Origin: Corallium rubrum
Lineage: Eukaryota > Cnidaria > Anthozoa > Scleralcyonacea > Coralliidae
Assembly (NCBI GenBank): GCA_964035015.1
Contig: OZ035998.1
Coordinates: forward strand, 26,939,917-27,003,916
Reading direction: 5' to 3'
Length of the DNA: 64,000 bases
How positions within the stretch are numbered: position 1 is the stretch's first letter; each line of letters begins with the position of its first letter. Shown here piece by piece: positions 12,460 to 56,884 of this stretch. Below the pieces are notes generated by a model, which worked only from the letters and a program-made list of their open reading frames with translations, was not told where the DNA came from and did not search any database. Both the position numbers and the translations under genes were made by a program.

Positions 12460-12583
12460 TCCTCCTGGAATTGAGGGCGTTTTGGTTTCTCTACTATGGG
12501 GCCATTTAAAAAGTTCCTCCTCCCGGAATTGGGGGCGTTTTGGTTTCTCTACTACATATGGGGCCACTTAAAAAGTTCCTCCT
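12460..12583. repeat. Two-copy tandem repeat of about 65 bp
   Basis: Sequence CGTTTTGGTTTCTCTACTA, then TGGGGCCA, TTAAAAAGTTCCTCCTCC occurs twice in tandem with minor differences. It directly abuts the truncated 5' edge of the LINE at 12585. Confidence 0.8.
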
Positions 12584-12584
12584 C

Positions 12585-13625
12585 CACTTCTTAACTGGTT
12601 TGCCGATTACCTTTGTGATCGCAAACAGTGTGTTGTCGTTGAAGGAGTTTCCTCATCCTTTCTTAGTGTTACCTCTGGTGTGCCACAAGGTAGTGTAATA
12701 GGTCCTCTCCTATTCTTAATTTATGTGAACGACCTTCCAGAGGTAACCAAGAATAGTACTGTTGCACTTTTTGCTGATGACAGCAAATGTTATCGTGCTA
12801 TACAATCACCAGATGATCGAGATCTCCTCCAGCTTGACCTGGACGCTATGTCCAACTGGTCGCTGTCCTGGCAACTGAAATTTAATGTCTCAAAGACGCT
12901 TTACTCAGGATATCCCGCAAACGCAACCCTCCAACTCATTCCTACTTTCTTTACAACGAACCAGTCAAGAGCATAGCTAGCCAAGTAGACTTGGGTGTGG
13001 TTATCAGCAATGACCTAAAGTGGTCCCCACACATAGCCAGCTGCACTGCAAAAGCCAATCGTATGCTTGGTTTTCTTCAAAGGAATTGTACCCAAATGAC
13101 TGATATTCGTTGCCGTAGGCTTCTTTTTCTTGCTCTCGTCCGATCTCATCTGTCTTATGGTAGTGAGATCTGGGCACCTCAAGGATCGTCACGCGATCTC
13201 GCGATCCTCGAGGGTGTTCAAAGACGTGCTAGCAAATTCATCCTTCAGGATTATGAGTTGTCATATCCTGAACATCTTAAGAAACTTAATTTACTTCCGA
13301 TATCCTACTAGCTTGAACTAAAGGATCTCGTCTTCTTTTTTAAATGTAAACAAGGCCTCTTCGACCTAGACATCTCCTCTTTCGTCACTTAGCTTTTTCT
13401 TCTCACAACACGTCTCGCACCCGTTCAAATAAGGACAACTTGCTTCAAGTCAACCATTGCAGGACGTCTCTCTATAGGAATTCTTTTTCAGTCAACCGAA
13501 TTGTCCTTCTCTGGAACAATCAGCTCTCTCCCACCATTCGTAATAGTTCATCCGTTTCCTCCTTCAAACACAGACTAACTGTTTACTATACTCTTCTCTA
13601 CTACACTCATCTTTCGATGTAAACA
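12585..13625 (+). pseudogene. 5'-truncated CR1/Jockey-like LINE reverse transcriptase
   Basis: The first part reads LLNWFADYLCDRKQC, followed by GVPQGSVIGPLLFLIYVNDL and LFADDSKCY (an FADD catalytic box in place of YADD). These are hallmarks of non-LTR reverse transcriptase palm motifs. After a frame change at about 12975, the C-terminal thumb region follows (GVVISNDLKWSPHI, RSHLSYGSEIWAPQ, LEGVQRRASKFIL) to 13311, with further decayed C-terminal sequence to about 13620. The endonuclease and the fingers of the RT are missing, and frameshifts and stops make it inactive. Plus-strand sequence to about 13900 is probably its 3' UTR. Confidence 0.9.
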
Positions 13626-14381: not shown

Positions 14382-14897
14382 TCAGCTGTAAAGAATAAAA
14401 AAATCCAAATTTTGAGAGTAATTTCGGTGGATCTGTTTCGTTGCGTCCACATAATAACGTATGTTTCGTTTGCCGTACCTCGCAAGAGTTACAACATAAG
14501 TTTCTCTCATATGGCCTCCATATACCTCGCCACACGCATAGCATATATTATTAGGTGACAATTCAGGGAGATGACAGACTGGGCATACTAATAGTAAATC
14601 AACGAGCTCTCTTATGGCTCTAAAAATTCGGTCTTCTATAACACAGCATTCCAGCCTTAGGTCATTGCCGTTTAACGCAGCGTGGCATCCCAGTCTTGTC
14701 ATCAAATATTTAGCCACACGCCTTGTACCAATCTCTATGTCAGAGCATATAGTTTTAAAATTGTTTATCACACTGTTGTTTTTCGGAATAGCTACTACGG
14801 GTTTGATCGTCGTATATACATTATCTAGAGTATCAACTATACTATTCCTACTCATTTGTAGTACCCGAGGTTTCATTAGCTGGCTCACCGCTTTCAT
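14382..14897 (-). CDS. eIF5/eIF2-beta-like zinc-ribbon protein in the Polinton
   Basis: From the first in-frame ATG (14897-14895) the ORF encodes 171 residues. Residues 20-55 are a linker (DTLDNVYTTIKPVVAIPKNN). Residues about 55-130 hold the signature of the eIF2-beta/eIF5 domain: RVAKYLMTRLGCHAALNGND, then a helix with IEDRIFRAIRELVDLLLV, then a four-cysteine zinc ribbon (CPVCHLPE and, 11 residues on, CYACGE). In translation factors this fold sits in the 43S initiation complex and binds eIF2-gamma. Here the basic K-box region of eIF2-beta and the HEAT tail of eIF5 are absent. Unlike every other long gene of the element it has no frameshift or stop. It overlaps the preceding ORF by 50 bp in another frame. 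The assignment is motif-based; a zinc-ribbon transcription factor of viral type is the main alternative. Confidence 0.7.
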   Translation of the reverse strand: MKAVSQLMKPRVLQMSRNSIVDTLDNVYTTIKPVVAIPKNNSVINNFKTICSDIEIGTRRVAKYLMTRLGCHAALNGNDLRLECCVIEDRIFRAIRELVDLLLVCPVCHLPELSPNNICYACGEVYGGHMRETYVVTLARYGKRNIRYYVDATKQIHRNYSQNLDFFILYS

Positions 14898-15640
14898 GCT
14901 TTGGCTCTTCGGGTTTGCCCGTGTAACGATGAGATACGACGTGTTTTCCAATTGTGATTCCGCCGCTCATAATTCCTATTGCTGGAATATATGGAGTGAT
15001 ATACCCTAGTGCATTCTGTATGTCGCGTTTTAGTAAGGTGTTATATATTGTGTAAATCCTTTTTAAGGGCTTTGCTATTTTCTATAGCGTTGAAATTTGC
15101 AAGGGTATCACTAAATTTGCTAATTAGCATGTCAGCTAAAAGTGCGTTAGTTTTTTCCAGCCTTTTTGTTTCAAGCTCGGAGTGGATTTTGTCGATCACC
15201 TTTGCTGAAGCTTTTTTAAGGTATTTAACGCTCTGGTCAATTTCACCGCCCTCGCTACAGTTAATTAGCTCGGCACGCTTATCACCGGTTGCGCTTTTGT
15301 TAGGCGTCACATTTTGAGCGTCCTTTTTCTTATTAACTTCATAGTCAATTTCTATGTCGTTATAGCTGCGGTCTTTAATTCTGATTCCGCGCTTTGCAAC
15401 TGTTCAATAAGCAGATTTAGCTTGTCTACAGGATCTATATAACTTGGTTATTTTGCGTTTTGGTATTACTTAGTATACCACATGTTTCATTTTAATTGCG
15501 GTCAGTAACAACTTTGTAACTATATGGATGCCTTAGCGATATTTCAAGGCGTGAGTACTTGCTGTTTTTAAGCTCCTGTATGATTTTAACAATGTCGTCT
15601 TTATCAGCACATACATAGCTAAATACAATGACACTTAAAT
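14848..15640 (-). pseudogene. Polinton coiled-coil protein with C-terminal hydrophobic segment
   Basis: Reading frames join across at least three breaks: DDIVKIIQELKNSKYSRLEI (about 15600-15545), VDKLNLLIEQLQS (about 15430-15390), IRIKDRSYNDIEIDYEV (about 15375), a charged heptad-like stretch ending NSKALKK (15310-15060), then, after a frameshift near 15063, RIYTIYNTLLKRDIQNALGY and a Gly/Ile/Pro-rich hydrophobic segment (ITPYIPAIGIMSGGITIG). The last frame stops at 14848-14850. The charged helical body plus a hydrophobic tail would suit a minor virion or membrane-associated protein, but I do not recognise the family. Confidence 0.55.
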
Positions 15641-15853: not shown

Positions 15854-15911
<58 letters not shown>

Positions 15912-16199
15912 TTGATTGCTAGTATAATCAAACTGTTTGTGCCTTTGCAGATATATCTGACACGTACTTTAAAATTGTTTCGACCTTGGTCAGTCCTGCT
16001 CACATTGAATGGCAAAAAAATCAGAGTCACTCAGATATTTCCAGGCATGGTACGTGCTATTCCATTCGAAAGTTGGGCATATTAGGACGATATATTCAAA
16101 ATGGTTCTTATACATGTACTCTTGTTCAAGCATTGTTAACAGATAGTGAGTTTCACCGCAAGCTATAATCCCAACTTCGAAAAAGCTGGTGTGACTCAC
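15661..16199 (-). pseudogene. Polinton A32/FtsK-like packaging ATPase, decayed
   Basis: The P-loop region reads VGIIACGETHYLLTMLEQEY, followed by FEYIVLICPTFEWN, YLSDSDFFAIQC and TNSLIIL (Walker B strand). After an AT microsatellite that interrupts the gene at 15859-15909, SIRYAKPYREN-type sequence continues as KPYRENIGKLVAFYNPSKND and a stop at 15661-15663. In active members this protein pumps DNA into the capsid. Here the Walker A lysine is glutamate (GET instead of GKT) and the Walker B acidic residues are lost beside the microsatellite. The N-terminus runs into the truncated capsid gene. It is clearly a dead copy. Confidence 0.75.
15859..15909. repeat. (AT)n microsatellite inside the ATPase remnant
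   Basis: About 50 bp of TA dinucleotides separating the Walker B side from the C-terminal part of the ATPase remnant. Confidence 0.9.
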
Positions 16200-16209
16200 A
16201 TTTCGGTCA

Positions 16210-16952
16210 AGCTCATCAGTGTCAGATGGGAAGAATATTCTGTTAGCATTGAAAAGTCATACTTTTTGAAATTCTGTATGCAAATGTAATTGGGCTGACC
16301 TTGGAAGCTAATCTTTACACTCTGAATACTGCCCTTTTGAAGAGCATAACGATGTTCCTTAATGACTTGCGTGGTAGGTTGACATTTTCGTGGATCGTCG
16401 TGCTGGCTGCTGTAACTGGAAACGATTTGACCAGTGTCGCGTGGGTATATAGTAGCTTGACTTTCCGCTATTGTACATCGACTGAATTTCGCTAGCAAGT
16501 AATTCGTTCTCGATGGTTTCGTACCGTAGCTTGATATCCTCTAGTTTGAATGAGGCTGGTATTGATTAGTTGCCACTACTACCTGGCACCAAGACTTTGC
16601 TAGTTCGTTGAGCTTCAATATGGTCTCCTGTGTGTTCTGCAGTGCATGCGGGTACACCGCACCGTTCTCTATATGTATATGTCGTCATCGATCGATACTG
16701 TGAATCGAGACCCATATATAGTATTCAAAAGGGCATCATTTGCAACGCTACTATCGCCAGATGCATCTTGGCTCCTCAATTTGGCTAGGTTGGTTGCCCC
16801 ACCTAGTCCTTAGTCCACCTTATGAGCTCTGTCTGATTTCGACCATAAGTCCTCATATAATATTTGCTTCCGTTAGGTGCCTGTAGATCTCACCGTTGAA
16901 CTTATGGGTGTAGATTTGAGATTAGGTTGATGGTAGCTCTCTGTGATGCCAT
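16210..16952 (-). pseudogene. Polinton major capsid protein, N-terminal part only
   Basis: It starts at an ATG at 16952-16950 (MASQRATINLISNL). Shifted frames then give KFNGEIYRHLTEANIIYEDL, NGAVYPHALQNTQE, PASFKLEDIKLRYETIENEL and SLRNIVMLFKRA, then KISFQGQPNYICIQNF. This order (gel-like N-terminus, LRYETIEN strand, hydrophobic strand, QGQPN-type loop) matches my recollection of Polinton double-jelly-roll capsid proteins. About 230 codons remain, roughly half the usual length or less, and sequence then passes straight into the ATPase, so the C-terminal jelly roll is deleted. Four or more frame breaks. Confidence 0.65.
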
Positions 16953-16984
16953 TTTAAAGTGAGAAAGTGAGCATTCTACTACCT

Positions 16985-17804
16985 GGTATTAATATATGGT
17001 TCATGGGTAATGTTGTCATTTTGATGTACAAGTCGGATTGAAGTCACGTCAACGACTCTCCGTGTGCTCTTTTTACTAGGGTCTGCGTATTTAGCTTTGA
17101 ATGTGGTTCTAAGTTTGTCTTGCATATAATTACGGTAGGTTTCGTTTACGCTTTCTATTTTTAAGATAATCGTATGCGAACCATGTTATTGCTAAAACGA
17201 GTATCCATGCAGAGATTGCTAGCTAACAGCTACTGTACCGTATTTGAGTAGGCTTAGACTAGCTATCGCTATTATTGTAGGGCCAAAAACTGACCTAGCT
17301 TTTTGGCTATAGTTTTTTTGAAGGCGTTGTAAACTGATTGTCCGAATGACATCGTAGCATGTGCACCTTTTTTGCTCGTATGATGTGCGCCAATAACAAT
17401 GGTCGTTATCAGTGATCCAACCGTTATAAGTAATGCGCTAGACCAAGCCAGTTCTCCTTTATCCATTTTTATAAATCGTTCTAATCGTGACAGATCATTG
17501 ATGCTCTCGTTGTTTGCAGCTTCCTCTTTGAATATTAATTTAGCTTCACCGGTGAATGATGTCTCAGTCTGTTCAATGCGCATGTCCCTCTCAACGATAT
17601 TATCAAGTGCGTTATTAAAGTTTCTGTACTTTACCCTAACTTCTTCAGGCGTTTCATCGTTATTGCCGAACTGTTTATATAGACGCGGTCTCTTTCTTCA
17701 GAAATATCGTTGAAATTATCAGTTAATTGTTCATTACTGTAATTTTCTAGTTTGTTACTTTCAAAATTTTTCATTTCGAAGTTATCAAAGCCTCCTTCTG
17801 CCAT
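16985..17804 (-). pseudogene. Polinton multi-pass membrane protein, decayed
   Basis: The start is the ATG at 17804-17802 (MAEGGFDNFEMKNF). After a frameshift near 17668, NNDETPEEVRVKYRNF leads into the 17272-17583 frame, which has a transmembrane segment (LAWSSALLITVGSLITTIVI) and GQSVYNAFKKTIAKKLG. Further shifted frames give two more hydrophobic helices (GPTIIAIASLSLL, AISAWILVLAITWFAYDYL) and a soluble tail (NETYRNYMQDKLRTTFKAKY to about 16985). Three helices and about 270 residues in total. Function unknown; its place between integrase and capsid genes suggests a virion membrane or assembly role, which is inference only. Confidence 0.6.
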
Positions 17805-17881: not shown

Positions 17882-18000
17882 GTGAGCACATGTGAATCTA
17901 TTTCACATGTTAAAATTTGACATGTGATCACATGTGAATCTATTTCACATGTTAAACTTCCACATGTGATCACACGTGTGAAAGCTCGTGTGAAAGCATG
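17882..18000. repeat. Palindromic CACATGTG repeats between integrase and membrane gene
   Basis: Two direct copies of about 50 bp, each with CACATGTGAATCTATTTCAC and CATGTTAAA, plus GTGATCACATGTG-type palindromes and a third degenerate part (CACACGTGTGAAAGC). It lies at the 3' end of the integrase. It may be a regulatory or termination region of the element. Confidence 0.75.
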
Positions 18001-18731
18001 TGGAATTTTTGTAAGGGCCGCTTAACAATTTTCTCCACTTTGTGCACATCATCTTTTTTGTCCACAGCTGATATAGCTCCTCCTCGTAGAACTTTCCAAT
18101 AATAGGCTCGTTGTCCAGATCAAATATCTCGTACGCATTAGGGTCATCTCGTATGACTCTTACCACTTTAAACAGTTCCTCAGTGAAGTTAGCTTCGTAT
18201 CCTTTCGTAAATGTGCTCTTGTACTTTGAAATCCTAACAGTGTCACCAACTTTGAATTTAGTAAAACTCTTTGCCATCATCAAATTGCGCTAACTTTGGA
18301 TTAGCACCAAATCTATTGTTGAACTGTTTCAGAAGCTCCTGCACCAGCCTTTATAGTCATATTACCAGTGTCTTTTCTGTAAACTGGAATAGCAAATGCG
18401 TATCTGCTAAGTATCTCAATAGCTGTTAATATCCAATGGTATAGCTTTTGTTTTGGTTCTTATACTTTCCCATATCCACGAGGTCCATTTGTATCTCAGT
18501 GTTCACCTAGGTAGTTAACAGACGTTTGTCTGAACGTACGTTTTCTAACAATTGGCTTATATACCTTGTGAAAGTATCTTGTGTTGTCAGCCACTCCTTG
18601 ACCATTTTTCTGCTAACATTGAGGCTTTTCTCTATTGCCTTCTGGTAGAGTCTCTCGGCTGACTGGTACCCAGTGGATGGGTTGTAGTAGATTTCACGGA
18701 GACCCTGCTCCAATTCTATATCATTGTCCAT
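17945..18731 (-). pseudogene. Polinton DDE integrase with internal deletion
   Basis: The N-terminus is MDNDIELEQGLREIYYNPST, then YQSAERLYQKAIEKSLNVSR. Core motifs follow in shifted frames: EIQMDLVDMGKYKNQNKSY (first catalytic Asp), WILTAIEILSRYAFAIPVYR, and LAQFDDGKEF (second Asp). The sequence then jumps directly into the C-terminal SH3/chromo-like domain (KFKVGDTVRISKY, EELFKVVRVIRDDPNAYEI, IIGKFYEEELYQL). The segment with the catalytic Glu is therefore gone. At least four frameshifts or stops. The family is retroviral-type integrase as used by Polintons and Ginger elements; the neighbours favour Polinton. Confidence 0.85.
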
Positions 18732-19110
18732 ATAAATTTCATGATGTATAACTCTAATAGGATGTTACCGAATTCATCGACGAGATTTCCATTTTGGTCT
18801 GTCACATGAAATTCAAATTGGTTAATAGCACCCTTGTTTATTGCAACACGGGTTTCAATTTCACGGAATGTCTGTGTAGAACCAAATAAAGGCTGAGTGC
18901 TGGTTACCGTGAGATTGATCAAAACATTGCTCTTTTTACTGTTCTCAGTATTTCAGTGACTGGTCTATAATATTGAATGTAACCCGCAGATACTTCAGCC
19001 AATGGTTCACTTGTACGATGCTGCTTTTTGTCACACTATTCGGTAGAAATATGCGGGTGGTAAAACCAAGGAGGTCTGCTATATATTCTGGTGTAAGATT
19101 AAGAACAGTG
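18720..19110 (-). pseudogene. Minor-capsid-like Polinton protein fragment
   Basis: Two frames, separated by a stop at 18945, read NLTPEYIADLLGF, VNHWLKYLRVTFNII, then INLTVTSTQPLFGSTQTF, ETRVAINKGAINQFEF and VTDQNGNLVDEFGN. A late beta-rich domain ending in a FEFxVTDQNGNLVD motif is, from memory, typical of the penton/minor capsid type protein of Polintons. The N-terminal part is missing and the strand is contested by the plus frame at 19060-19510. Confidence 0.45.
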
Positions 19111-19988: not shown

Positions 19989-21690
19989 GTGCGAAGAGAC
20001 AGGATCGGCGCGAAGAAAGGCTATGGTGGAGTGGCTATTTATGTTCGGGCGGGTTTGCCTTTTCGTCTGAGAAACGACATCAATGCTGGCGAAAACGAGT
20101 GCTTATGGATTGAACTAATTCGGGTTAAGTGCAAACCAACGATAAATTTAATTTGTTGCTCTTATGGAGCTCCCGCGATGAAGACTTTGGTGAAGTTTAT
20201 TTCTAATCTATACAGCTGTATGCCTGCCATGGATTTGGAGAAATCTGATTTAGTGTTCTTAAGTGATCTAAATGTGAATATGTTACTAAATTCCAGAAGC
20301 CGTATGGGAGAAAAACAAAAGCTATAAAATTTTATGCGCACGATGGATTTAAAAGCGCCGAGTGAAGGGTATATACCGCGGTTACCTTGGATGAACAGTA
20401 AAATAAGTGAAGCGATGCGTGATCGTGATTACCATCATCGGAAAGCCACCAAATCAAACTTAGCTTATCATTGGGAAATATATAGGAGGCAAAATAAGAG
20501 GCAGAAGGGGATTCGAGTAAAGTATGGAAAGCTGTTGACGAGGCCTCCCGTCGTGGAGTCAAATCTTCAAGTGAATCAAGTCCGCAATGTTTTATATCAG
20601 ACTGTGTCCAACATTCTGCGCTGAACTCATTTTTTGTTTCTATTGGGAAAATATTAGCTCTCTGTTCAAATCAAATCCGACGAATTATCGCCCAATTTCA
20701 ATATTGCCTACTCTTAGCAAAATTTTGGAAAGAGCAGTAGATTCACAACTGTATGAATATTTGAAATCAAATAATCTACTCTCAAACAGGCAGTTTGGCT
20801 TTAGACCAAAACGTTCGACGGTAACTGCTCTATCAAACTTTACGGATGAAGTCCTACACAATATGGAAAGAGGGAAGTTTTGTGGAGCGGTATTTCTGGA
20901 CTTATCTATAAGGCGTTCGACACCGTAGACCATGGTATTTTGCTTACCAATTGTCAACACTTGGCATATCTCCATCTACTCCAGTTGTTTCGGTCGTACC
21001 CCATAGGAAGCAGCGAACGTCTTGTGGTCATGAATTATCTGATGGACTGCCCGTTACATTTGGCGTGCCTCAAGGCAGTATCTTGGACCCGTTATTATTT
21101 ATTATTTATATTAATAACTTACCAACCACTGTGAGTCATTCTGAATTGTCATGCACTCTTTGCTGATGATGCAGTACTATATTGTTATAACACAAAACTT
21201 TAAGATCTCGAAAAAGAACTAAACGAAGATCTTTTAACAGTAGCTAAATGAGTAAATGAGAACAAGCTGACTTTAAACCTAGAAAAACCCAAAATGTATG
21301 CTTATAGGTAGTAACCGTAAGCTCGGAGATATTAGGTCGTTATCAGCAGCTATTTTTGATTATGAAATTACTAATGTGAATAACTTTAAATACTTAGGAG
21401 TTTACTTATCTAACGACCTTATTCGGACATATCATATAGATTATCTATCATCTAAAATTAAACAAAGTCTAGGTCTTTTAAGAAGAATTAAGCATTTACT
21501 ACCTTATAAAGCGCGCCTCTTATTTTATAATGGCTTAGTTCTCCCACTATTTGAGTATGCAGATGTCGTATGGGGTGACAAAAAATCACACTTATGAATA
21601 ATTTATAAGTACTACAAAATAAGGCTGCTAAGATTATCTTAGACAAACCACTATATTCATCCGCCTCAGAAGCTCGATCTTGCCACGCTA
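19989..21690 (+). pseudogene. Decayed LINE (endonuclease plus reverse transcriptase)
   Basis: Endonuclease remnants (GGVAIYVRAGLPFRLRND, CLWIELI, LVFLSDLNVNML) occur at 20030-20290, a linker (LPWMNSKISEAMRDRDYHHR) at 20380-20470, and RT motifs from 20680: NYRPISILPTLSKILERAVD, NRQFGFRPKRST, AVFLDLS then KAFDTVDHGILL after a shift, VPQGSILDPLLFIIYINNLP, ADDAVLYCY, and thumb LGVYLSNDL, LLPYKARLLFYNGLV, LFEYADVVWG. Frameshifts and stops lie between most motifs and a piece is missing between the endonuclease and the linker. CR1/Jockey-type organisation. Confidence 0.9.
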
Positions 21691-22704: not shown

Positions 22705-25390
22705 AACCATAGTCACATAGACATGGATACATGTAAACAAATCTCTTAAAAATTGACATTGTGATTACTATACTGGTATAGCTTCATGGATTTGTTCATG
22801 TATATAATGACTCATGTATAATCACTCAAGATTTTGAGCCTTGGACCCTTAGGGTTGTCCACATTATGTCAACATGATTTTGAGCATAATAGTGAGGCAC
22901 AAGTCTAGTTCCACTCTGTGTTCTTGAAAAAACTTTTGACAAAACTATATTAAAGATGGATTCCCACACAAGACACCAGTCTAGGGACCAAGGATGCAAG
23001 GCACAGCACTTTCTCAATACATAACATGCACAATGCAAACCGTAACCCATAACCATTTTGGTTGTGCATGTACTGTATCGAGAAAGAGCCCTATATGCAC
23101 CTCATTTTAAGACCATTCCTGGTTACAATGACTTCCAGACATACATCGCTTCCAGTATATCCAGTTCTAGATGACTACTGGTACAAGTTTTAATGCTTCA
23201 GTGTCAGCTGCCTCCTGTGTTTACTGTCATCTACTAATTCATTTTACCTGTCTTTATGCTAATCATAATGGAGCATAATAGATAGTGATGCTACAGTATT
23301 TGAGCAAGGTTTAAAACACATGTTCTCTTTAGTTCATCCACCTGATATTGATTGAAATTCCACTTTTATACCCCAGGCTAATTACTGTAACTGTCACAAA
23401 CCCATACCCAGGGTCTTTATTACTTGCCTTTTAAGTACCTAACATGTAGAATTAGTGGGTCAATCCCTTTTTATCTGCCACCATCAACTTTGGCTGATAC
23501 TCATGAAAATCTTGGGCCATGGCTCTATTTTCTCTTATACAGTACTTTTTTCCCTAATTTTTGTTTTATAATCTGTAGATCCAGGTCCAGAGCCAGGTTT
23601 GGACAATCACTACCTGTCATGATCAGTGCTGGTAAAATCTGATGTTTCTGATATATTTCTGGAAGATAAATCTAAAAACCTGGAAGTTAAATTTACTGTC
23701 ACAGCTGTCAGCATGTGCACAGAATGTTGGTGGAGTCACATTGTTATCACGCATGTACTGTATATCAGTACTATAGAACAATTATGCTGTCCTTTCATTG
23801 AACATTGTCTACACTGATGGTCTGCAAACTATGGTCACAACCCAAACAAAACATTTTCACAGGATTTTGTCAGAAGTCGCACGACTTAGTTTTTCAGCAT
23901 TTGCCGACAAACATTGGTCAAGTTAACCCAGTTGTCTGTTACCCATGCAATGTTAGTAGACATGAAATCCCCAAATGCAAAAGTATTTTTTGTTCGCTAC
24001 TTTCACAAGTTCATGTAATTATAGTAAATGGTTACATATGTACAACGAATAATGTACTAAATTTATCATGAAATCAATCATGGCACAATGCTTTAAATTG
24101 TGCAGTGGGTCATCAGCCTAAACGTTTGTGGACTGTTGGTCTACACATACAAATAGCTCGGCAAAAACAATTTCAACAACTTTCTAATCACTAATTAATG
24201 CTGTAATTATTAGTCAATGCTTATGGCGTCAGTAACTTTTTTTTGGAAATCAATGTTTAAAATGTTCTTCATCCCAACCTGTAAACATACTCTCTTCTAA
24301 ACCTTGCTGCTACTGACGTTAATCACTTAATCTGTTGTATTTGTTTACATGATTATCCTGAATTGTGAAGTGGTCTAGAATTCCAGATAATCCTGAATAT
24401 TAAAGAAAATGAGACCCAACCCTGACCCCACCTCACAGTAACCCTAAATGTTACCACAACCCCCCAGGGAGAAAGTTCCACCACTCAGACCCTGACCACA
24501 ACACCCCTACTGTTTTTTGTTATATGCTTTTAGTTTAACATCCCACATGTGGGACAGAGAAGTCCACCAGGATCATCCTGAATTCAAAATATTCAATGGT
24601 TCAACATCGAGCTTAAATCACCAAACGGAAAGGGCGTTTTGTCTGATAACCAATCTAAGTACTTACACAGGCTTGGAAATAATCGGCTATAAAACGCCTG
24701 TGTCAGACGATTATGACGCTGTCTGTGGAGCGATCGACGCATATATGTTGACTTTTAGGATAAAATGCAATATCGTTGCCAAAGAAAGGTCAAATCAGAT
24801 GAGACACTCGCTACCCACATGAAATGGATCGATCGTATTCAATAAAATATATAGTTAGTGCTTTATCGGAAAAATTTAGTTGAAAATTCAGTTGAAAATT
24901 TAGTTCAGTATCTTCATAAAGCCACCTCTGTTACCAAATGTACGAGTCTTGTGACTGTCTGCTTTGTTACTATAGTGTCTTCGTCCCTCAACTACGAAAT
25001 AGCTAGCGCGCAAAATAAAAGTACGCTGCGCTGAAAGGAGCGCTGTACCAGGTGAAAAACTGGACAGGTAGTAAAGCTCAAACAACGGCCTGGTGTTAAG
25101 TGCAGGAGATATTGTCGAGCCGCCGCCTAATGACACTAAATACAACGGTGCGGTTTTATTTGAGCCTCCTAAAAAATAGACAGAAGTGAGTTCGTCTGCC
25201 AAAATAAATTCTATCTGCAACCTATTTTAGATATGTTTAAGAGAGACGCTATTTGACGAATTTACAAACTGTGAGATCATCCATTGTCTCCACACTCTTA
25301 TTTTATTTATTTATTTATTTAGTCTCCAGTGGCAAGTGTGAAAGTAATTGGTATCGAATGGTATTAAACGCAGCTATAGTTATATAAAAT
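22705..25390. other. No gene seen
   Basis: AT-rich sequence with only short ORFs lacking recognisable motifs (including 24517-24822 on plus and 24900-25220 on minus). A TTTA run lies at 25299-25321. I cannot support an exon here. Confidence 0.45.
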
Positions 25391-25708
25391 ATGGAGTTGA
25401 CATTCGAGAAAATTTATGATATCCATATGCGTTATTCCCCAGACGAAGCCTTTGACATATTGAACAACGGTGGCATCGAACCAAAGCGAGTAAAAAAGAC
25501 TATAGACTTGTCATCTTGCAATGAGTGTGGGGGCGATATGATACGAGAGATCGGTACAGGATATACAGTGGTCCCCGAACGAGATCCAGATACGACAGGC
25601 AATGACAAATTAATGCGTGGAAGACTACATTATGAGTCAAATACGAGGAGCAAGAGGCTTTGTTCGCTAGAAGGCGAGCACCCATGCACTCAGGATATAT
25701 TAAACTGA
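25391..25708 (+). CDS. Hypothetical ORF with zinc-ribbon-like half site
   Basis: 105 residues from an ATG: a charged N-terminus (FEKIYDIHMRYSPDEAFDIL), a hinge (KRVKKTIDLSS), then CNECGGDMIREIGTGYTVV. A C-x2-C-G-G followed by a short strand with GxTV resembles the first half of the zinc ribbon in poxvirus-type late transcription factor 3 homologues carried by large DNA viruses and some virus-like elements, but the second cysteine pair is not visible in frame. Similar-looking protein sequence continues in another frame to about 25830. This may be a decayed virus-type gene; confidence in function is low. Confidence 0.3.
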   Translation: MELTFEKIYDIHMRYSPDEAFDILNNGGIEPKRVKKTIDLSSCNECGGDMIREIGTGYTVVPERDPDTTGNDKLMRGRLHYESNTRSKRLCSLEGEHPCTQDILN

Positions 25709-26164
25709 TTGGGCTCAAAATGTGAGCACAAATATATCGGTCTATGCTTTTGATGCTGCCTTTAACCGATTCGGCATGAGTTATATCAGCGAGAGTGACA
25801 AACATCGAATCCAGCTTTGTTAACTCATGAAGGACAACCACCTTTGGCCTATCACAAATGAACATATCAACTTATATATAGAGAGTAACCAACTTATATA
25901 AACACATTTCCGAATACCGCTTTTCAAAGACGTCTGATAAAACCATGGTGTTGACTGATGATAGCCACGAAATGATGCTTGAGGAAGACAGCTTTCCAAA
26001 AGTCACACCCTTGTTACTCGGGCTACCGAAGGTAGACGAGTCTAGGTTTCGGCTCGGTTTTTTTTTGTTTTTTCCCTTCTGTGTCACGCTCTTAGCCTAC
26101 TCCGCAGGCCTCTCTAATCAGAAAGCGCACACTCTTTTTTGTCCAGAAATTGACACGCTTTAAG

Positions 26165-26470
26165 ATGTGTTATTCAACACACCTTGGTGTGTTCAATAAC
26201 ACCTTAAGGTGTGTTTTCTGCTTGTCCAGAATCTGACACGTTTTAAGGTGTGTTATTAGAAAGGTGTGTTATGGAACACACCAAGGTGTGTTATTCAACA
26301 CACCAAGATGTGTTATTCAACACACCAAGGTGTGTTATGTAACACACCTTCAGTTGTATTGAATAACACACTATAGGTGTGTTATGATGCAACACACCTT
26401 TGCAGTAGATGTGTTGTTTAACAAGGTGTGTTACAATTGTAAATAACACACCTTCAGCTGTGCTAAATAA
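26165..26470. repeat. AGGTGTGTTA/TAACACACCT array 1
   Basis: About 18 irregularly spaced copies of AGGTGTGTTA in both orientations, often as TTATTCAACACACC or AAGGTGTGTTAT pairs forming small palindromes. The same motif forms arrays at 30410-30655 and 31755-31905. Confidence 0.85.
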
Positions 26471-34744: not shown

Positions 34745-36176
34745 TTGTTATCTTTATTAGATGTCGCTAAAATCTTATAAGATGTTGTAAGATTGTTTAA
34801 GATCTTATTACAAGATTTGGCAGCATTGCCCTTATGTATTGGAATGACCTTAGCTATTTTCCAATCATCAGGAAAGGCTCCAGTTGACAATGATAGATTG
34901 AATAATTTGCATAAGTATGATGAAATAATTGGGGCAGAAATTTTAATTAGTTTAGCCGGAATATTATCTAATCCTGAGGCTTTATTAGCTGAAAGCTGGT
35001 TTAACAACTCTTCAACAGACATCTTAGATATTTTTCAAATTGTTGTTGATCGACAGGAAACTGATTAGCAAGAATAGATCCAATTTCTGTAAAGTGTTTA
35101 TTTAACGAGTTCGAAATCTCAGCCGGTTCAGTTAGAATTTGCTTGTCGACTTTGAGCTGGGTTATAGAATCATCAGTAGATTTACGATTAAGTAACTGAT
35201 TGATTACGTCCCAAGATTGCTTTGGATTATTTTTATTCTTTTGAATTTCAGATTGTAATAATCAGTTTTAGCTTTATTTACCATTCTATTCGCAAGATTA
35301 CGAGATTCTTTATCCTGGGAACAAATAATTGGATCATTGGTCTTCGCAAATTCTTTTTTCATATTGTCTCGTTTTATAAGTTGCCGCCGTACTGATGGAG
35401 TAATCCATGGGCACTTAGCTGCCTTGATACGTTTGGTTTTCATCAGAGCATGCCTGTCAATTACACCTAAGAACAACAGCTTCATTTGCCCCACATATGG
35501 TTAACATTATTGGATAGGTCAAGGAATTCCAATCAATAAGATTCAGATCATTAAGATATTTGTTTAGGTCAAATTGCTTGAAATTCCTTGAGGTTGAATA
35601 TTTGTGGGTTCCTCGTTTACAAATGTTAATTTTACTTGTGGTATAAATTAAGTTATGATCACTAATGCCAATTTGAATGACACCAGATTGAGCTATTTTC
35701 CGTAAATCATTAGTTAAATTAAGCCAATAGTGGTTCTGGATGACTCTGTAATGCGAGTGGGTTCTTTGACAAGCTGTTCGAGTTGATAATTTTCATTGAG
35801 TGACAACAATATCTTGGTATGAGTAGAAGAAATAGGTGCCGAAACATCGCAATTTAAATCACCCAAGATTATGATTTCCTTTCCTTCTGAATCTAATGTC
35901 GCGACCAAACTTTCGAAACTCTGGAAGAATATATCATCTGCGTGATTTAAAGAGCTGTTTGGAGGTCTGTAGCATGCTATTTACGGCAAATGGTTTAGCG
36001 TTAGGCTTTTTAATTTCAATGGACACTGTCTCCAAACCCCCGTTTACTAGTTCCGCTCTGAGTTGATAATTAATCGAATTTCTTAAATAAATGCAAACGC
36101 CACCACCTTGACGATTGCAATCTTTCCTTATAACAGAATAGCCTTTGATGGCTATTAGGTTATCACTCACTGAATC

Positions 36177-36939
<763 letters not shown>

Positions 36940-38385
36940 ACTATTCTTGCCCAGTCCTTTTGCCGAGTTATGTATAGTCGCGTTGATATTTCGATTTGTG
37001 AAAGTCGATCGCGTCTGTTTGGATGTTCGCACTATTGCGTAATACAGGTAATAATACCGAGCAGGAGATAAGAAGCTTGGGTTTAGTCGACCTGAAGTTG
37101 GCCGGCCTCGTGTTTCATTTTCGAAGAAGTTGGCCAAGCTTAGTTACTAGGTAAGTACTTCTTTTTACAACCATTTAATATCATGTCATGATGTCAAACA
37201 GAAGGTTACTAAAAGTGAAAGTTTGATACATCAACTCCTCGACCTTTGGGACTACATCTATTTATGCTATAATCACACACTATATCTGATTTACAGTGGT
37301 TTCTCCAATGGATTTGTGCATCAACCTGTATATGTATACACTGTACTGTAATTAACTGTACATGGAACTGTCTTCAAGAAATGACTTACCTTAACTTTGT
37401 GAAAATTCAGTGATTCATGGACGATGGAGGCTTTATCTGTGTGCCATGGATTACCATAATGTATTTGGTACATGTATACAGTAAATACAATATTACGAGT
37501 TCTTTGGGACAATAAACTACAGTGGTTTCAATGATGTATTTCCAAACGACAATTACAGTACATGTGAAGTTGTGGACATGTGCAATGAACTAATACATCA
37601 CAAAGATCTCCTTGAAAGTATTGCATTCTCAACAACGACTCCAAGGACAATAGTTATAAACAATCATGGAGCAACAACAAACTTATATTACATACCATAT
37701 CTGGTATTTATTTTGTCAGCGTGTATTTCTTTGGTGCTTGCTTTACCATAACATATCTGACACTTGGAATTCCAGTCACACCTTTGCCACAGTAAGAAGA
37801 TGCCGGATTTATAGTGGAGTGATTTATCAACTGTTTACTAACAATTGTGCAAAACATCAACTGCATAGTTATAGTGTATATATTATACTGTGTCAAGCCT
37901 AAAGCCAGATTAGTGAGAGTTATTTGTAATTTAAGTCTGCTTTTTAAATATAATTTAAAAATTGAAAAAAAAATGTGCATAGTTAGTGGAGGGTATGGTT
38001 TGGAAACTCCGCAAAAGTCGCTGTCCATGTTTTTGTTCAGTTTGTCTAATTTCATGCTCCCTGAATGAGTGAACGTATTGTATTTTCTGTATAATGAAGC
38101 AGTCATCCAATAGCAATGTTTGGGTTTCATTAGTGTAGTCCTTCGTCGTCACGTGTTGTAAGTCCTTCATCATCACATGTCCATAGAATTCCATTCTTTT
38201 AGCATTATCGCCTTCCCCCAACATGAACAACACAATAACATGAACATATATTGTATAATCTTGAAAGACAATGCATGCAGCTACCAAACCATCATCTCCA
38301 CTAACTATGGTCTGTTACAATTCATATAATCAATCCCAGGGTTCATTTGTGAAATTATCATAAATTAGGCTTCCCATCGCTTTTG
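36940..38385. other. Possible inserted block, no gene seen
   Basis: Flanked by AGGCAGCAC (36931-36939 and 38386-38394). No terminal inverted repeats, no ORF with a recognised domain (longest 140 codons, minus, 37708-38130). Confidence 0.4.
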
Positions 38386-44320: not shown

Positions 44321-44511
44321 TTAAGGCTATTCATATTTCAGAACGATCCTGAAACACTCGTTCTGTCTCTTCGTCCATAGGAAAGCTTGTCGTTTGAGCG
44401 AGAAACTCGAAGCGCCTTACGGAATAATTACAATAACACTTTGCATGTATGGTTTTTAGTGCAAAGTTTCGCAGAAACTTTACAGTATTGTGATGGTGGC
44501 GAAAATTCACA

Positions 44512-48217
<3,706 letters not shown>

Positions 48218-51024
48218 TGTAAACTTTTCCGGGGGGTGTGCCAAGTTTAGCGACATATAAGTTGTCGTGCTTGGATGAATAATATCGTTGTCAATAGGTA
48301 CTTTAAAGAGTTTCACTGATAACTAAGGCAATTTAGTAAAGTATCTGTGGATATCTCTTGAAAGACTTAAGTCAAATATTACATTTTAATCTTGAAGTAT
48401 GTCGTGTCTAAAATCAGAATATAATGTTTTCCTCTGGGTGTTTTCCCCCGGTTTATGTAGAAATCTTACTGCGCACGCGCGAAACTAAATTTTACAAAAG
48501 TGAATACCATATGATGGCGGAGACACAAAGAAGGCGCGACCGACAAGCGATTAATAGAGAGGAGGCGATGAATTTTCTTGTCAAAATAAGGACTATGTGG
48601 TCTAATTAAATATGGTCTGAGCGAAAGGATTATATTGTCACATGTATTTCGAGGTAAGCGTATGTTCAGTAGTTTTTATTAGTTTATATTTCACTGTTGA
48701 CGAATCGCGCCCAGCCGCCCAACTGCTAATTTTGAAATTTATAGAGTCAAACTAGAGATTTTCTTAAGGGTGGTATGATATTAGCCGCTCAGGTATGATG
48801 AACGAAGGGCGCTGAGTGCATAAACTTTCTTAGACGATAAACTCAGTACAATCATCGTCTTTTGTTTTGGTCGTTTGTGCTGCCGTGTTTAACATAATTC
48901 ATCTTTTTTTCGCCTCTTCACGGTTTGGTGATTTCCAAATACTTTATATACACAACTATATTTTCATACTATTAAGGCCTACGACAATTGCCTCAGACAA
49001 AATTACTAGTCACAAACGACGTGTTTCCCATAACGCAGATACGCTGTATCATAGATTCATAGTCCAGTTTATTTTGTGTCGATTCTCAAGGCTGCCGTAG
49101 TTAGTTTTTCTTTGCCGACATATAAAAGTAATGTGTATTAAATCACCGCTTGAGAAGTCGGCTGTTTGCATAATTGCATCATCGCTGTACTTTTATAGTA
49201 TAAATATCATACGACATTTAATGGCTGGTTACAGACGGCGTATTTTTTTATGAAATTTCAATTCGCAGTCGAGTTTAACATATAGCCGACTCGCCTTCTT
49301 TTGTTTTTATGTCAAGATACCTCGGGCTCAGTGAAAGTCAGCTCTAGTAAAGCAGCCGCCAGCCGAGTACCAGACTTTGAATCTTTATCAATTCGCGTAA
49401 TAGATTTAAAGAGATAGTTTATAACTCATTCCTGTCCGGGGGCTTCCCCAGAGGTGAATAAAATCGTCTGGCGTTAGCCAGAATAAAATACTAAAGACCA
49501 ATTCGGACAAGAAAGAGTTAAACAAAAACAGATATTTTATAATAACAGAACAGTCGAAGGTCAAATGAGTTGTTTACGTGTCATTGATACGACCGGATAT
49601 GAGAGATGAAATCATGTGAGGCATATGACGCCTAGCAACGGGAACGTGATTGGCTGTCTAAATACGGAAATGAGTTTTTTGGTCACATGATATGCTGTTG
49701 TTTTGCGCGTTTTCTTTCTTTTCGACGAGGTGTTCGAGAAGTGAAGTTATATCTGTGTTCTCTGCGGCTTTTTACAATCCTGCGACTCGCCAGGAAGCTT
49801 CAGTTGGTAGCGAAATGCGAGTAGATGGCCAATGTGTCATCGACACAAGGTTCAGTTGCCACGTTAGCACTTCAGATGCGAAAGGTGACGAGGTGTCAAC
49901 GTGCACCGACACAGACCCAAAAGTTCATGGGTCTATCACAACGGTGAGCAATTGTGAACTCTATCAAAATCTATGTAAAATAGAACTAATACAGCAGTTA
50001 AATTGAAACATGTAACTATCAGAAAAATTTTTTTATGTTGTTTCCTCAAGACTTTTCATTGAATTGTACAATGTATTACATGTACATGTATCGTCAAATT
50101 TAAAGCAAAATAAATCATTTGAAATGTAAAAAGCTCAAGTGTTTTTTACTTTTTTTATGTTGAAATACAGTACAGTACTGTTAATTGCTCTACGAAACTT
50201 TGCACTATCCTTGGGTTCTAGTATATTAAAAAAGTATTGCACATAAATCAGCATTGCCCGCGCGCTTCCTTTGGTATAAAATAACGGTGAATACATTAAA
50301 AATCTAAATGCTGTGCAATACATACTATTGGTCTATACATAGGTATATGCTTTAGAAACCAGTCACTGATTCGCAAATATTCAAAAAATAGTTTAAACTT
50401 TATATCAACATACCAGTAGACCACTGTCAGCTAGCTATTAACGCCTCTTGGATTTTTTGGCGTCTTGTGATTGCGTACGCTGCAATTATCCACGACCTGA
50501 AGCGAAACTCGACTTCCAATCTTCCATTGGTTGTTCTGGTACACGTTCGGAAACCCTTCGGACATACGAATAAGACATCTGAAGTATCGGCTTGATCACG
50601 TGATTGGAGATCACTGCGTCTGCAATTCATTGACACAACAACCAGCCAACAAGGCTGTTGGGCTTTCGTGCTCGATTTTCAAAAAAATTCTTGCTTTTAA
50701 ACCGACTTTGCCTTTGGCCAAAGTGTTGGTAGGTTTTCCAAGTAAGTTGCTTATATGGTTGATCAGTAGTGATATGCTTCACACAACAACAGAATTGGAA
50801 CATGACTGTCGGTTAATTTTCGAAGTGATAGATAGGAGAGACCTATTAACCGTGGAGAGACGAAGTTAGGCTTCATATATGGGAGGTATTGCGCAATTTT
50901 GTGTGGCGAAAAAAAAATAACAAACGTCTACGGCACGAATGAAAAAGAGACGGTGCCAGAATGACGGCGAGCGGCGAGCCTTCTAGAAGGGTTACCCTAG
51001 TTCATTGTCTTTCCGCTAGGGAAA

Positions 51025-53341: not shown

Positions 53342-53554
<213 letters not shown>

Positions 53555-53649
53555 GGTCTGGTCGGCTAAGTTCGTTGGACGAATCTACACTTGTTCGAGA
53601 CTTTAGATAAAGATTGGAACGTTTGTTGAAAGCCGTTCAGAACTGAGAC

Positions 53650-54132
53650 ATGAATACTCGACGATCTAGAAACCGTAAATGTGAAGCCTGGGGAAATAAA
53701 GTACATGTCGACGAAGTGTCCGTTGTCGAATACCAAAAGCTGTTTCCATGGATAGAGGCCATATACACAGACGCTATCGCCACTGAAATCGAGAAATTAT
53801 GCGCAGAAAACTGTTGTGGTTGTAAGATTGATCACCCCAGTCAGCGCCAGCATGATTGCCTCATGATGACCAAGGAAGAAAGATGGGAATTGTACTGTAA
53901 AGATGCCATTGCATTTGTAAACGATAAACGATTGATTTGGGACGAGTTTACTGAAGCGACAAGACTACTAAAGATCAGGTGTCGTAAAGACGCTCTTGAA
54001 CGTTTAAGACATTTAGAAAACACGTCAGAGTCCATATTGTATGCAGTGTGGCAATTTTATAGTAATGCGCAGAATCCAGAAATGAAATGTATTCTAGGAT
54101 ATCTTTCTTACTGGAGAGAAAGTAATAAATGA
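53650..54132 (+). CDS. Gene A, left arm: 160-aa HPSQ zinc-motif protein
   Basis: 160 residues from an ATG (MNTRRSRNRKCEAWGNK). Residues 35-50 are a helix (IEAIYTDAIATEIEKL), followed by CAENCCGCKIDHPSQRQHDC, a compact Cys/His cluster (C-x3-C-C-x-C-x3-H-x5-H-x-C) likely to bind zinc, then LMMTKEERWEL and a helical C-terminus (LERLRHLENTSESILYAVW). From memory, proteins with a GCxxDHPSQxxHxCLM core recur in animal genomes next to other small element-type genes; their role is unknown to me. The frame is intact here, whereas the right-arm copy is split by an insertion. Confidence 0.7.
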   Translation: MNTRRSRNRKCEAWGNKVHVDEVSVVEYQKLFPWIEAIYTDAIATEIEKLCAENCCGCKIDHPSQRQHDCLMMTKEERWELYCKDAIAFVNDKRLIWDEFTEATRLLKIRCRKDALERLRHLENTSESILYAVWQFYSNAQNPEMKCILGYLSYWRESNK

Positions 54133-54279
54133 TTTTCTTGTATAAATGTTGTGTTTTGTCTTAAATATGGCTAATAATTGTAGATTTCAAAGCAAATCCT
54201 CGTTTATGCTTATATAAGGAAATCGTAGGAAGATAGAATGAGGAATCACTTCGAGAAGCCGTAAGAAGAACGATTTTAA

Positions 54280-54567
54280 ATGTCGAAATATAAAGTCAAA
54301 GCGATTTATTACTTTGAAAGTGTTGCTACGCTTTTTCTTACTAAGAGTGATGTTTGCATATTTATCCTGAGTGCACGTGCAGGAGACAAAAGAAAAAACT
54401 CATTAGGGGTCATTAAGAGGATGAAGCGCTTAGGTAGGTCTGGGCGAGAAAGTCAGCGTACCGCGTGTATTTTGCATAAGACAGGATTCACAACAATCAG
54501 TTTAAAATATTTATTTAGGCTTTCGTTTAAACTTACACATATCAAAACAAATTACGGTTACATATAA
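54280..54567 (+). CDS. Small basic ORF, left arm (doubtful)
   Basis: 95 codons with a hydrophobic N-terminal half (VATLFLTKSDVCIFILSA) and a basic stretch (RKNSLGVIKRMKRLGRSGRE). The right-arm equivalent (58361 downward, minus) has a premature TAG after RESH, so the frame is not conserved. It may be non-coding. Confidence 0.3.
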   Translation: MSKYKVKAIYYFESVATLFLTKSDVCIFILSARAGDKRKNSLGVIKRMKRLGRSGRESQRTACILHKTGFTTISLKYLFRLSFKLTHIKTNYGYI

Positions 54568-54750
54568 AAAGTTTTAGTAAGGTCTGCTTCTTAGATTATA
54601 TTTAGGCGTTGTTATTTTAAAAGTAGCATGATACTCTTTCTTGTCTTCGGATGATAATTGTGATACATCTTTTGTCATGGGTAAATATTTTGATATAGTC
54701 ATCAATAGATGATGTTGATACTTTTTTATTTTGGTTCAAAATTATTTTCA

Positions 54751-55209
54751 TTAATTCCATCGGTGATATAAACCCTGGGACACGCAGTACAGAAACCAAT
54801 TGAATGTAAAAAAAGATAAGGGAGATCCTAAGTTACATAATTTACAATGATTGTTATCCTGATAGAAATCTTTCCATGAACATTTAGGACACTGAAGTAA
54901 ATATACAACACGTACAATACTTTGACAGTGTTCACATTCTCCAGTAAGTGCTTTATTTCTCTCCGAGTCCTCTCCACTCCAATGCTCCGCGTCCGACTCT
55001 TCTTGTTCAGTTTCGGAGTCAGTTTCTTCGTCTTCGCTTTCGGATTCCAGCTCTTGATGTTCGTGACGTGCCAGCATGGTCAAAACCGGAACATTTTCAA
55101 TGCGGAGACTTTTATCAATTTTCAAATTTGCTAGTCCTTTAACAAAAATATCTAAACCAAGGGGTTCGGGAATCTTGGCATCGTATTCTGTTAGAAAATA
55201 TTCTATCAT
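54751..55209 (-). CDS. Gene C, left arm: acidic protein with three CxxC pairs
   Basis: 152 residues from an ATG: MIEYFLTEYDAKIPEPLGLD, VKGLANLKIDKSLRIEN, an acidic low-complexity centre (ELESESEDEETDSETEQEES), then CEHC, CPKC and CKLC pairs and a hydrophobic tail. The three cysteine pairs suggest zinc binding. Directly upstream (55410-55215) another frame reads TFTLRIDEEKVSSLLNSLL and WNSRGEIVYYGRTIPRTN, which looks like the lost N-terminal domain separated by a frameshift shared with the right arm. Resembles an uncharacterised family of element-borne proteins; no function known. Confidence 0.6.
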   Translation of the reverse strand: MIEYFLTEYDAKIPEPLGLDIFVKGLANLKIDKSLRIENVPVLTMLARHEHQELESESEDEETDSETEQEESDAEHWSGEDSERNKALTGECEHCQSIVRVVYLLQCPKCSWKDFYQDNNHCKLCNLGSPLSFFTFNWFLYCVSQGLYHRWN

Positions 55210-55438
55210 CAGTGATATTTGTTCTTGGTATAGTTCTCCCGTAATATACTATTTCCCCTCTTGAATTCCACGTGAGAAGACTATGAGATATCAGCAAACT
55301 GTTTAGTAGAGAAGACACTTTCTCTTCATCGATTCGTAGTGTAAATGTGATATTATTTGTTGGACGTGATAATTAGCGAGACTTGTTTCTTCCATGATGT
55401 TCACACTTAAACTGACTATCGTAGAAACTTTTAGTGCT

Positions 55439-55756
55439 TTATACCATTTCTGCGAGTCCTTCTAAAACAGGACCAAGTAACAGGCTTAGAAATCCTTCAC
55501 CGTTTTGAACCAGTGTTTTCTTTTTTCGTCTAAAACTTCGTCGGGGATCAACCAAAATGTGTAGATCGTCCTGGTAAGGGCTAAGTGTTTCAATCACATG
55601 GTGAGGTAGTTGATAGTGCATTTGCCATAAATTATGCACACACTCGCATATACATCGAACCTGCTCAGGGCTCGCAGACTCCAAAACAGCTCGCTGTTGT
55701 AGGGGTTTTGAAAGACACCAAAACTGAAGAAATGCCCTCTGTTCGTGGGTGAACAT
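55439..55756 (-). CDS. Gene B, left arm: 105-aa protein ending GFLSLLLGPVLEGL
   Basis: From an ATG: MFTHEQRAFLQFWCLSKPLQ, CICECVHNLWQMHYQLPHHV, ETLSPYQDDLHILVDPRRSF, a basic patch (RRKKKTLVQNG) and a short hydrophobic end (EGFLSLLLGPVLEGLAEMV). A helical body, then RxSxxxKKxxLVQxG-x-GFL-x2-LLGP, recalls small proteins of virus-like animal elements, some compared with adenovirus core or minor capsid peptides; this comparison is from memory and weak. The frame is intact in this arm only. Confidence 0.6.
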   Translation of the reverse strand: MFTHEQRAFLQFWCLSKPLQQRAVLESASPEQVRCICECVHNLWQMHYQLPHHVIETLSPYQDDLHILVDPRRSFRRKKKTLVQNGEGFLSLLLGPVLEGLAEMV

Positions 55757-55855
55757 CTCTATCTGATAGTCTCTACCAGAACATGCATTTTAAGAGGAAG
55801 ATAAGGAGTAGAAAGAAAATAGAGGAAGAGGAGAAGGAAGAGAAACAGGAGGGAA

Positions 55856-56767
55856 GGGCTCGGAGTTAGGAGCAAAGAGGTTGGAGCCAAGGGCTTGGAG
55901 GCATGAGCCAAAGGCTCGGAGCTAGGACCCGTGGGCTCGGAGCCAGGAACCGGGGGCTCGGAGCTAGGACCCGGAGGCTCGGAGCTGGGAGCCGGACCCG
56001 GAGGCTCGGAGCTAGGAGCCAGGGGCTCGGAGCTAGGAGCCAGGGGCTCGGAGCCAAGGCTCGGAGCCATGAGCCAAGGGCTCGGAGCTACGACCCGGGG
56101 GCTCGGAGCCAGGAGCCAAGGGCTCGGAGTCAGGAGCCAAGGGCTCGGGAGCCAGGAGCCAAGGGCTCGGAGCCAGGAGCCAAGGGCTCGGAGCCAGGAG
56201 CCAAGGGCTCGGAGCTAGGAACCGGGGGCTCGGAGCTGGAAGCCGGGGGCTCGGAGCCATGAGCCAAGGGCTCGGAGCTACGACCCGGGGGCTAGGAGCA
56301 AGGGGTCAAGGGCTCGGAGCCGGGGGCTCGGAGCTAGGAGTCAAGGACTCGGAGCTAGGACCCGGGAGCTTGGAGCCAGGACCCGGGGGCTCGGTGCTAG
56401 GACCCGGGGTCTTGGAGCTGGGAGTGTGGGGCTCGGAGCTAGGAGTCAAGGGCTCGGAGCTAGGACCCGGGGGCTTGGAGCCAGGAGCCAAGGGCTCGGA
56501 GCCAGGAGCCCGGGTCCTAGCTTCGAGCCCTTGACTCCTAGCTCCAAGCCCTTGGCTCATGGCTCTGAGCCTTGGCTCCGAGCCACTGGCTCCTAGCTCC
56601 GAGCCCCCGGCTCCCCGCTCCGAGCCACCGGGTCCTAGCTCCAAGTCCCCGGCTCCTAGCTCCGAGCCCTTGCCTCCCAGCTCCGAGCCCTTCGCTCATG
56701 GCTCCGAGCCCTTGGCGCCCGGCTCGTACCTCCGACCCCTTTGCTCCTAACTCCGAGCCCTTTCCTC
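55856..56767. repeat. Mirrored GC-rich minisatellite at the palindrome centre
   Basis: Units close to GGGCTCGGAGCTAGGAGCCA run forward from 55856 to about 56515, then flip to the inverse (TGGCTCCTAGCTCCGAGCCC) to 56767. The unit itself is rich in GGCTC/GAGCC inverted words. All SEPLAPSSEP-type ORFs here are repeat translation. Confidence 0.95.
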
Positions 56768-56884
56768 CTCCTGTTTCTCTTCCTTCTCCTCTTCCTCTTT
56801 TTTCTTTCTACTCCTTATCTTCCTCTTAAAATGTATATGTTCTGCTAGAGATTTCCTCATTTTGACACTGACTGTCAGATAGAG

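Follow-up and report, generated by a model that had tools for sequence, protein, structure and literature searches.

An open reading frame (ORF) on contig OZ035998.1 of the cnidarian Corallium rubrum raises the question of whether a virus-like element as small as a Polinton could carry its own translation initiation factor. The ORF lies in a stretch of 64,000 nucleotides (positions 26,939,917 to 27,003,916 of the contig, assembly GCA_964035015.1), referred to here in full as the window and numbered from its first letter. A sequence-only reading of the window had described a 171-codon, translation-factor-like (eIF5/eIF2-beta) frame inside a dead Polinton. The frame was found as described, on the minus strand, with its ATG at 14897 and its stop at 14382-14384 in the ORF list of the window, and the stop-free frame was seen to extend upstream to 14966. 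Both sequence profiles and structure matches backed its assignment to the translation factors. We put at about even the chance that the ORF is a minimal accessory gene, related to eIF2-beta and to the N-terminal domain (NTD) of eIF5, of a now dead Polinton/Maverick-like element, and that its product was a translation mimic while the element was active.

The ORF belongs with the eIF2-beta/eIF5 N-terminal domains

Pfam placed a single family on the ORF, PF01873 (eIF-5_eIF-2B), across residues 29-113 (E 2.9e-9, 37.3 bits against a cut-off of 27). The NCBIfam model of aIF2-beta (NF003067) matched at E 2e-10, with 40.7 bits against an equivalog cut-off of 129, a score short of that asked of a canonical orthologue, and a PDB sequence search matched it to archaeal aIF2-beta (2d74) at E 6e-4. 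With a profile score above the curated cut-off, the core fold and a four-cysteine ribbon following that core, the ORF has the features by which the PF01873 superfamily is recognised. As a control, a profile built from 30 short (archaeal-type) relatives was scored against the stop-free pieces of the window of at least 30 codons; the ORF frame scored 33.7 bits and the runner-up among the 1079 pieces 6.3 bits. The top score from 5000 shuffled versions of the ORF was 9.2 bits, and the reversed ORF gave 2.7 bits. Homology to the eIF2-beta/eIF5-NTD superfamily, as judged from these sequence scores, is well beyond chance. Unrelated zinc ribbons, which the sequence-only reading had allowed for as possible best profile matches, did not take that place.

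The 171-residue ORF gave no second Pfam domain at E 10, such as the eIF5 C-terminal one; eIF5 carries a HEAT-like domain at its C-terminus. Human eIF5 aligned with the ORF over the first zinc knuckle only, leaving the GTPase-activating-protein (GAP) arginine (Arg15) of the N-terminal tail without placement.

A confident core fold is followed by a shortened zinc ribbon

In a structure model guided by family members, the core was predicted with confidence and resembled aIF2-beta, eIF2-beta and eIF5, with blocks of residues 31-100 at a mean predicted local distance difference test score (pLDDT) of 87-94. Archaeal aIF2-beta (2d74, 2qmu) was the best match of the ORF in sequence and in structure, and the structure prediction that had been proposed as a check against eIF5 and eIF2-beta returned translation factors as its top matches. 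The 13 best viral structure matches (BFVD) were giant-virus and abalone-herpesvirus proteins, all named as translation proteins; these were compared with the ORF by structure match. As had been reported from the letters of the sequence, a RLGCHAALNGND core, a helix (predicted by the model at residues 88-103) and the cysteine pairs CPVC and CYAC follow one another in the order of the eIF2-beta/eIF5 NTD, but the family spacing also claimed for the ribbon did not hold.

The ribbon of the ORF reads C-x2-C-x10-C-x2-C. Ribbon spacing and lysine runs were counted on the best 120 of the 5072 proteins found by an alignment search, 77 of these 120 being long. The CxxC pairs are 17 residues apart in 118 of the 120, the pattern being unmatched in the remaining 2, and 19 residues apart in yeast eIF2-beta and human eIF5 (counted on the sequences); the canonical aIF2-beta/eIF2-beta loop of 17 to 19 residues between the zinc knuckles is thus represented by 10 residues in the ORF. 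The ORF also has no lysine run (KKK), where KKKK occurs in 69 of the 77 long relatives, so the eukaryotic lysine boxes are missing. In the available part of PMC11230868, the zinc domain of yeast eIF2-beta is divided into loops, of which loop 245-256, inside the stretch between the knuckles, appears to be the R-loop linked to initiator transfer RNA (tRNA), and the remainder of the domain is proposed to contact the nucleotide interface of eIF2-gamma. The shortened ribbon offers a specific change that can be tested, located in the region of eIF2-beta for which contact with eIF2-gamma and the initiator tRNA has been proposed.

The same shortening bears on the main rival to a role in translation, in which the fold was kept but turned to nucleic-acid binding, for example in a small zinc-ribbon protein that served the element in transcription or packaging. 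The cut from 17-19 to 10 residues falls in the stretch that holds the tRNA-linked R-loop (PMC11230868, as above), parts of RNA polymerase subunits also aligned structurally to the ORF model, at lower Z (4.6-5.9), and zinc-finger regulator genes are described for some adintoviruses in the accessible text of PMC11071296. The sequence profiles and the top structure matches nevertheless pointed to translation factors, as did the names of all 13 viral matches, and we regard a purely nucleic-acid-binding role as unlikely, if worth keeping in view.

The ORF lies beside a one-strand block of broken genes

Between 18952 and 14851, the strand of the ORF carries 15 hand-picked open pieces, each 46-141 codons long, whose frame shifts from piece to piece. 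By eye, the pieces at 17948-18764 read as an integrase from Polinton-like motifs (DLVDM, ILSRYAFAIPV, DDGKEFY, and GDTVRISK...FYEEELYQL for the end) that Pfam and PDB did not confirm, and those at 15993-17185 are presumably a Polinton major capsid, likewise from motifs read by eye and unconfirmed by Pfam or viral contigs. In vertebrate Mavericks, as described in part of PMC8097293, integrase, minor capsid, PW, major capsid and protease form a one-strand module and accessory regions flank the core in most; the gene order found here fits that module loosely. Like Maverick/Polinton elements, the locus appears, from motifs read by eye, to group integrase-like and capsid-like genes on one strand along with accessory genes; it differs from them in being a remnant only, in which polymerase and terminal repeats were not found. 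For the earlier description of a dead Polinton, the context is plausible, but the identity comes from motifs read by eye and from gene order, with no confirmation from Pfam, PDB or viral contigs. We consider the Polinton label probable.

Reverse transcriptase pieces, by eye of long interspersed nuclear element (LINE) type, flank the element on the plus strand at 12572-13308 and 20575-21163, with RVT_1 matches at 12572-12973 and 20575-20925. As such pieces stand on both sides, LINE-type elements have probably cut into the element and spread over it. Between its capsid-like and its coiled-coil-like pieces, the decayed element holds a run of TA dinucleotides (15860-15909).

That some large DNA viruses carry initiation-factor homologues, as stated in the sequence-only reading, was borne out by the literature. 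Within the portion of PMC6401483 that was available, eIF2-beta/eIF5-NTD genes occur in giant viruses and fall on viral branches of their own within the eIF2b tree, and several of the giant viruses with such genes carry further translation genes; the corresponding portion of PMC5552708 reports an eIF-5_eIF-2B domain in a malacoherpesvirus and names Baculoviridae and Marseilleviridae as further holders. The giant viruses concerned (Orpheovirus, Barrevirus, marseille- and pithovirus-like; PMC6401483, in part, and BFVD) share with the ORF the domain and a DNA virus or virus-like carrier, and their proteins are similarly short (119-217 residues in all but one match). They have much larger genomes, whereas the ORF sits in a small element and has a short ribbon, the viral proteins being known here from structure match alone. 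The putative eIF of abalone herpesvirus (K4JYD8, 137 residues; PMC5552708, in part) has the same eIF-5_eIF-2B domain and comes from a virus of an invertebrate animal, but its carrier is a herpesvirus and not a Polinton.

These carriers suggest another source for the ORF, namely a larger virus, akin to giant viruses or malacoherpesviruses, that integrated separately next to the transposon or within it. The origin of the 13 best viral structure matches and the holders of the domain listed in the available part of PMC5552708 are consistent with such an event. However, the open piece before the ORF lies on its strand and overlaps it at the end, an arrangement to be expected of neighbours in a single gene block, and larger-virus genes were not recognised in the 26 other window pieces given to Pfam. 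We find a separate integration quite unlikely, and favour reading the ORF as a gene of the element.

No report of an eIF2-beta/eIF5-NTD gene in a Polinton was found in the literature, of which few subscription journals were covered and some papers were available in part, in keeping with the sequence-only reading, which knew of none; the term 'eIF' is absent from the main text of two preprints on Polinton-like and animal viruses. The domain in viruses is already known, and the new points are the carrier and the altered zinc ribbon of this viral-type eIF2-beta homologue, known from one decayed copy.

The ORF is distant from its cellular relatives

Local BLASTP put the identity of the ORF to the relatives listed, among them Nematostella and Hydra eIF2-beta, at 21-28% (one row lacked a value); in an alignment of 56 of these relatives it was 19-26%. 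All of the best 120 relatives carry PF01873 and are named eIF2-beta/aIF2-beta or IF2B/IF5-domain proteins, or have uninformative names. With the profile sets split by length, the ORF scored 33.4 bits for the short archaeal-type set, 11.3 bits for long eukaryotic eIF2-beta and 2.1 bits for human eIF5, and by these scores it is closer to short archaeal-type aIF2-beta than to either of the others. It shares with archaeal aIF2-beta (2d74, 2qmu) the short form, the core domain and the four-cysteine ribbon, but is only about a quarter identical, has a ribbon loop of 10 and not 17 residues, and has a C-terminal tail of its own. With eukaryotic eIF2-beta and eIF5 it has the core domain and the order of the cysteines in common, but it lacks the lysine boxes and gave no further Pfam domain of the kind found at the eIF5 C-terminus.

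In a phylogenetic tree, the ORF had a branch length of 9.95 and no supported neighbour, and its grouping with eukaryotic eIF2-beta was not rejected (approximately unbiased test, p-AU 0.417). This weak placement would be explained by rapid viral evolution, and likewise by an old capture. The sequence-only reading had named placement as a simple host retrocopy as a result that would count against it; at 21-28% identity a recent copy is out, but the tree is compatible with a deep eukaryotic origin. A retrocopy of host eIF2-beta or eIF5 that has since decayed would share the domain and would fit the p-AU value. It would sit poorly with the low identity to the listed relatives, Nematostella and Hydra eIF2-beta among them, with the low scores of the eukaryotic profiles beside that of the short archaeal-type set and with the missing lysine runs, and neutral divergence this deep would hardly preserve a 171-codon frame and four cysteines. 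We regard a retrocopy as very improbable.

Searches of a large protein set gave 230 candidates for the whole ORF, none at E 1, and 5 for its core, none at E 10; these searches require shared 5-residue words, and distant orthologues may escape them. Among PHROGs, two unnamed families only were returned, at E 0.1 and 0.17. No relative was found in the viral contigs scanned with the ORF or with the alignment of its cellular relatives, a weak negative, as the scan with the alignment turned up no viral eIF2-beta although giant viruses have such genes.

The open frame is compatible with chance

The ORF had been singled out as the only long gene of the element without a frame break, hinting at later selection or recent arrival. 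It is indeed the longest open piece, but such a length is expected. The 15 pieces of the neighbouring element comprise 1329 codons, or one break per 89 codons, a density taken from hand-picked pieces and inflated by counting gene ends as breaks. Under an exponential model at this density, the probability that a given 171-codon stretch stays open is 0.145, and the probability that the longest of 16 pieces reaches at least 194 codons is ~0.85; a stop-free run of at least 194 codons also occurred in 12 of 200 random 64-kb sequences. The length of the ORF alone is not significant. With a long open piece expected from the breaks in the neighbouring element, an unbroken frame says little for selection or for a recent arrival; as a sign of selection it is weak evidence and is compatible with chance. 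That the gene is now domesticated, under selection in the host, would fit the longest open frame of the element and the retention of all four cysteines, but with an open piece this long expected anyway we consider it very improbable.

A proposed translation mimic while the element was active

If the ORF was an element-borne translation mimic, its product would have joined the host translation pre-initiation complex while the element was active. It may have used its helix and zinc ribbon to dock on eIF2-gamma, or it may have settled on the platform of the 40S subunit, the site of eIF1 and the eIF5-NTD. A mimic with no lysine boxes and a trimmed R-loop could fill such a site while lacking the full regulatory contacts of eIF2-beta, and the outcome would be initiation biased toward the messages of the element, or a blunting of host control of eIF2. 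The present copy probably lost its function along with its element.

Several results weigh against this reading. The model made without the alignment of relatives fails (pLDDT 31), which indicates that the confident fold leans on the family members supplied, and the zinc-ribbon spacing departs from the family. Relatives closer than cellular aIF2-beta/eIF2-beta were not found in the protein set, where the best 120 of 5072 aligned proteins were listed, or in viral contigs, prokaryote genomes or plasmids. The Polinton identity comes from motifs read by eye, and no profile or relative confirmed it in Pfam, PDB or viral-contig scans of six pieces. Polymerase B, which in Polintons/Mavericks is protein-primed, was not seen in a simple motif scan of the six frames of the window, and the element may be truncated or too degraded to show it; no inverted repeat of at least 40 nucleotides spanning the element was found within 8000-30000, where diverged or shorter repeats may escape.

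Beyond this copy, it is a tentative and rather doubtful extension that some animal Polintons have their own minimal eIF2-beta/eIF5-NTD mimic acting on host start-codon selection or on eIF2 control. Translation factor genes have been discussed mostly as a mark of giant viruses. If the proposal is true, this would be the first translation initiation factor in the Polinton class and a small-virus lineage of translation mimics beside those of giant viruses. Control of translation initiation would then be within reach of very small virus-like elements, Polinton-sized and in an animal-type genome, and such elements may have had an infectious phase in which controlling host translation paid.

Features of the ORF, its element and the rest of the window

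Table 1. Coordinates of the ORF, its parts and the neighbouring pieces of the element, with the basis of each assignment
Feature	Position	Strand	Basis
Minimal eIF2-beta/eIF5-NTD homologue, 171-codon ORF, range including stop codon	14382..14897	-	ORF list; PF01873 E 2.9e-9; NCBIfam NF003067 E 2e-10, below equivalog cut-off
Predicted N-terminal helix, residues 11-30, at the position of the eIF2-gamma-binding helix alpha-1	14808..14867	-	Model, low to moderate confidence; role of alpha-1 from PMC11230868 (in part)
PF01873 domain match, residues 29-113	14559..14813	-	Pfam; model blocks of residues 31-100 at mean pLDDT 87-94
Short four-cysteine zinc ribbon CPVC-x10-CYAC, residues 105-122	14532..14585	-	Sequence; spacing 10 versus 17 in 118/120 listed relatives
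C-terminal tail, residues 127-171, beyond domain match	14385..14519	-	Pfam limits; model unconfident there
Open piece of upstream small gene with hydrophobic stretch, end overlapping ATG of ORF	14851..15081	-	Open-piece listing; no Pfam match at E 1
Open piece, presumed coiled-coil gene of element	15044..15403	-	By eye; no Pfam match at E 1
Broken pieces with motifs like those of Polinton major capsids	15993..17185	-	Motifs read by eye; no Pfam match above cut-off
Broken gene with hydrophobic segment	17222..17897	-	No Pfam match above cut-off
Broken integrase-like pieces in three frames	17948..18764	-	Motifs read by eye; nothing above the Pfam cut-off and no convincing match in PDB

Elsewhere in the window, a 106-codon open piece with a CxxC motif lies on the plus strand at 25388-25705; by eye it resembles the start of a viral late transcription factor, but it has no Pfam match. 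Short imperfect direct and inverted repeats cluster at 26162-26371 around AACACACC/GGTGTGTT. Long micro- and minisatellite arrays are open in frame at 35934-36941, 44507-48316 and 58683-59326 (SL, YLSTYLPI and RSFV repeats), the second of them yielding an ORF of 1269 residues. A large inverted duplication spans 53548-59575, with arms at 53548-55677 and 56963-59575 that match in four blocks at 97-100% and carry a pair of ORFs that both start with MNTRRSRN, one on the plus strand (53650-54132) and one on the minus strand (58799-59473). An intact single-ORF gene for a rhodopsin-family receptor was found at 61583-62623 (7tm_1, E 2.5e-24).
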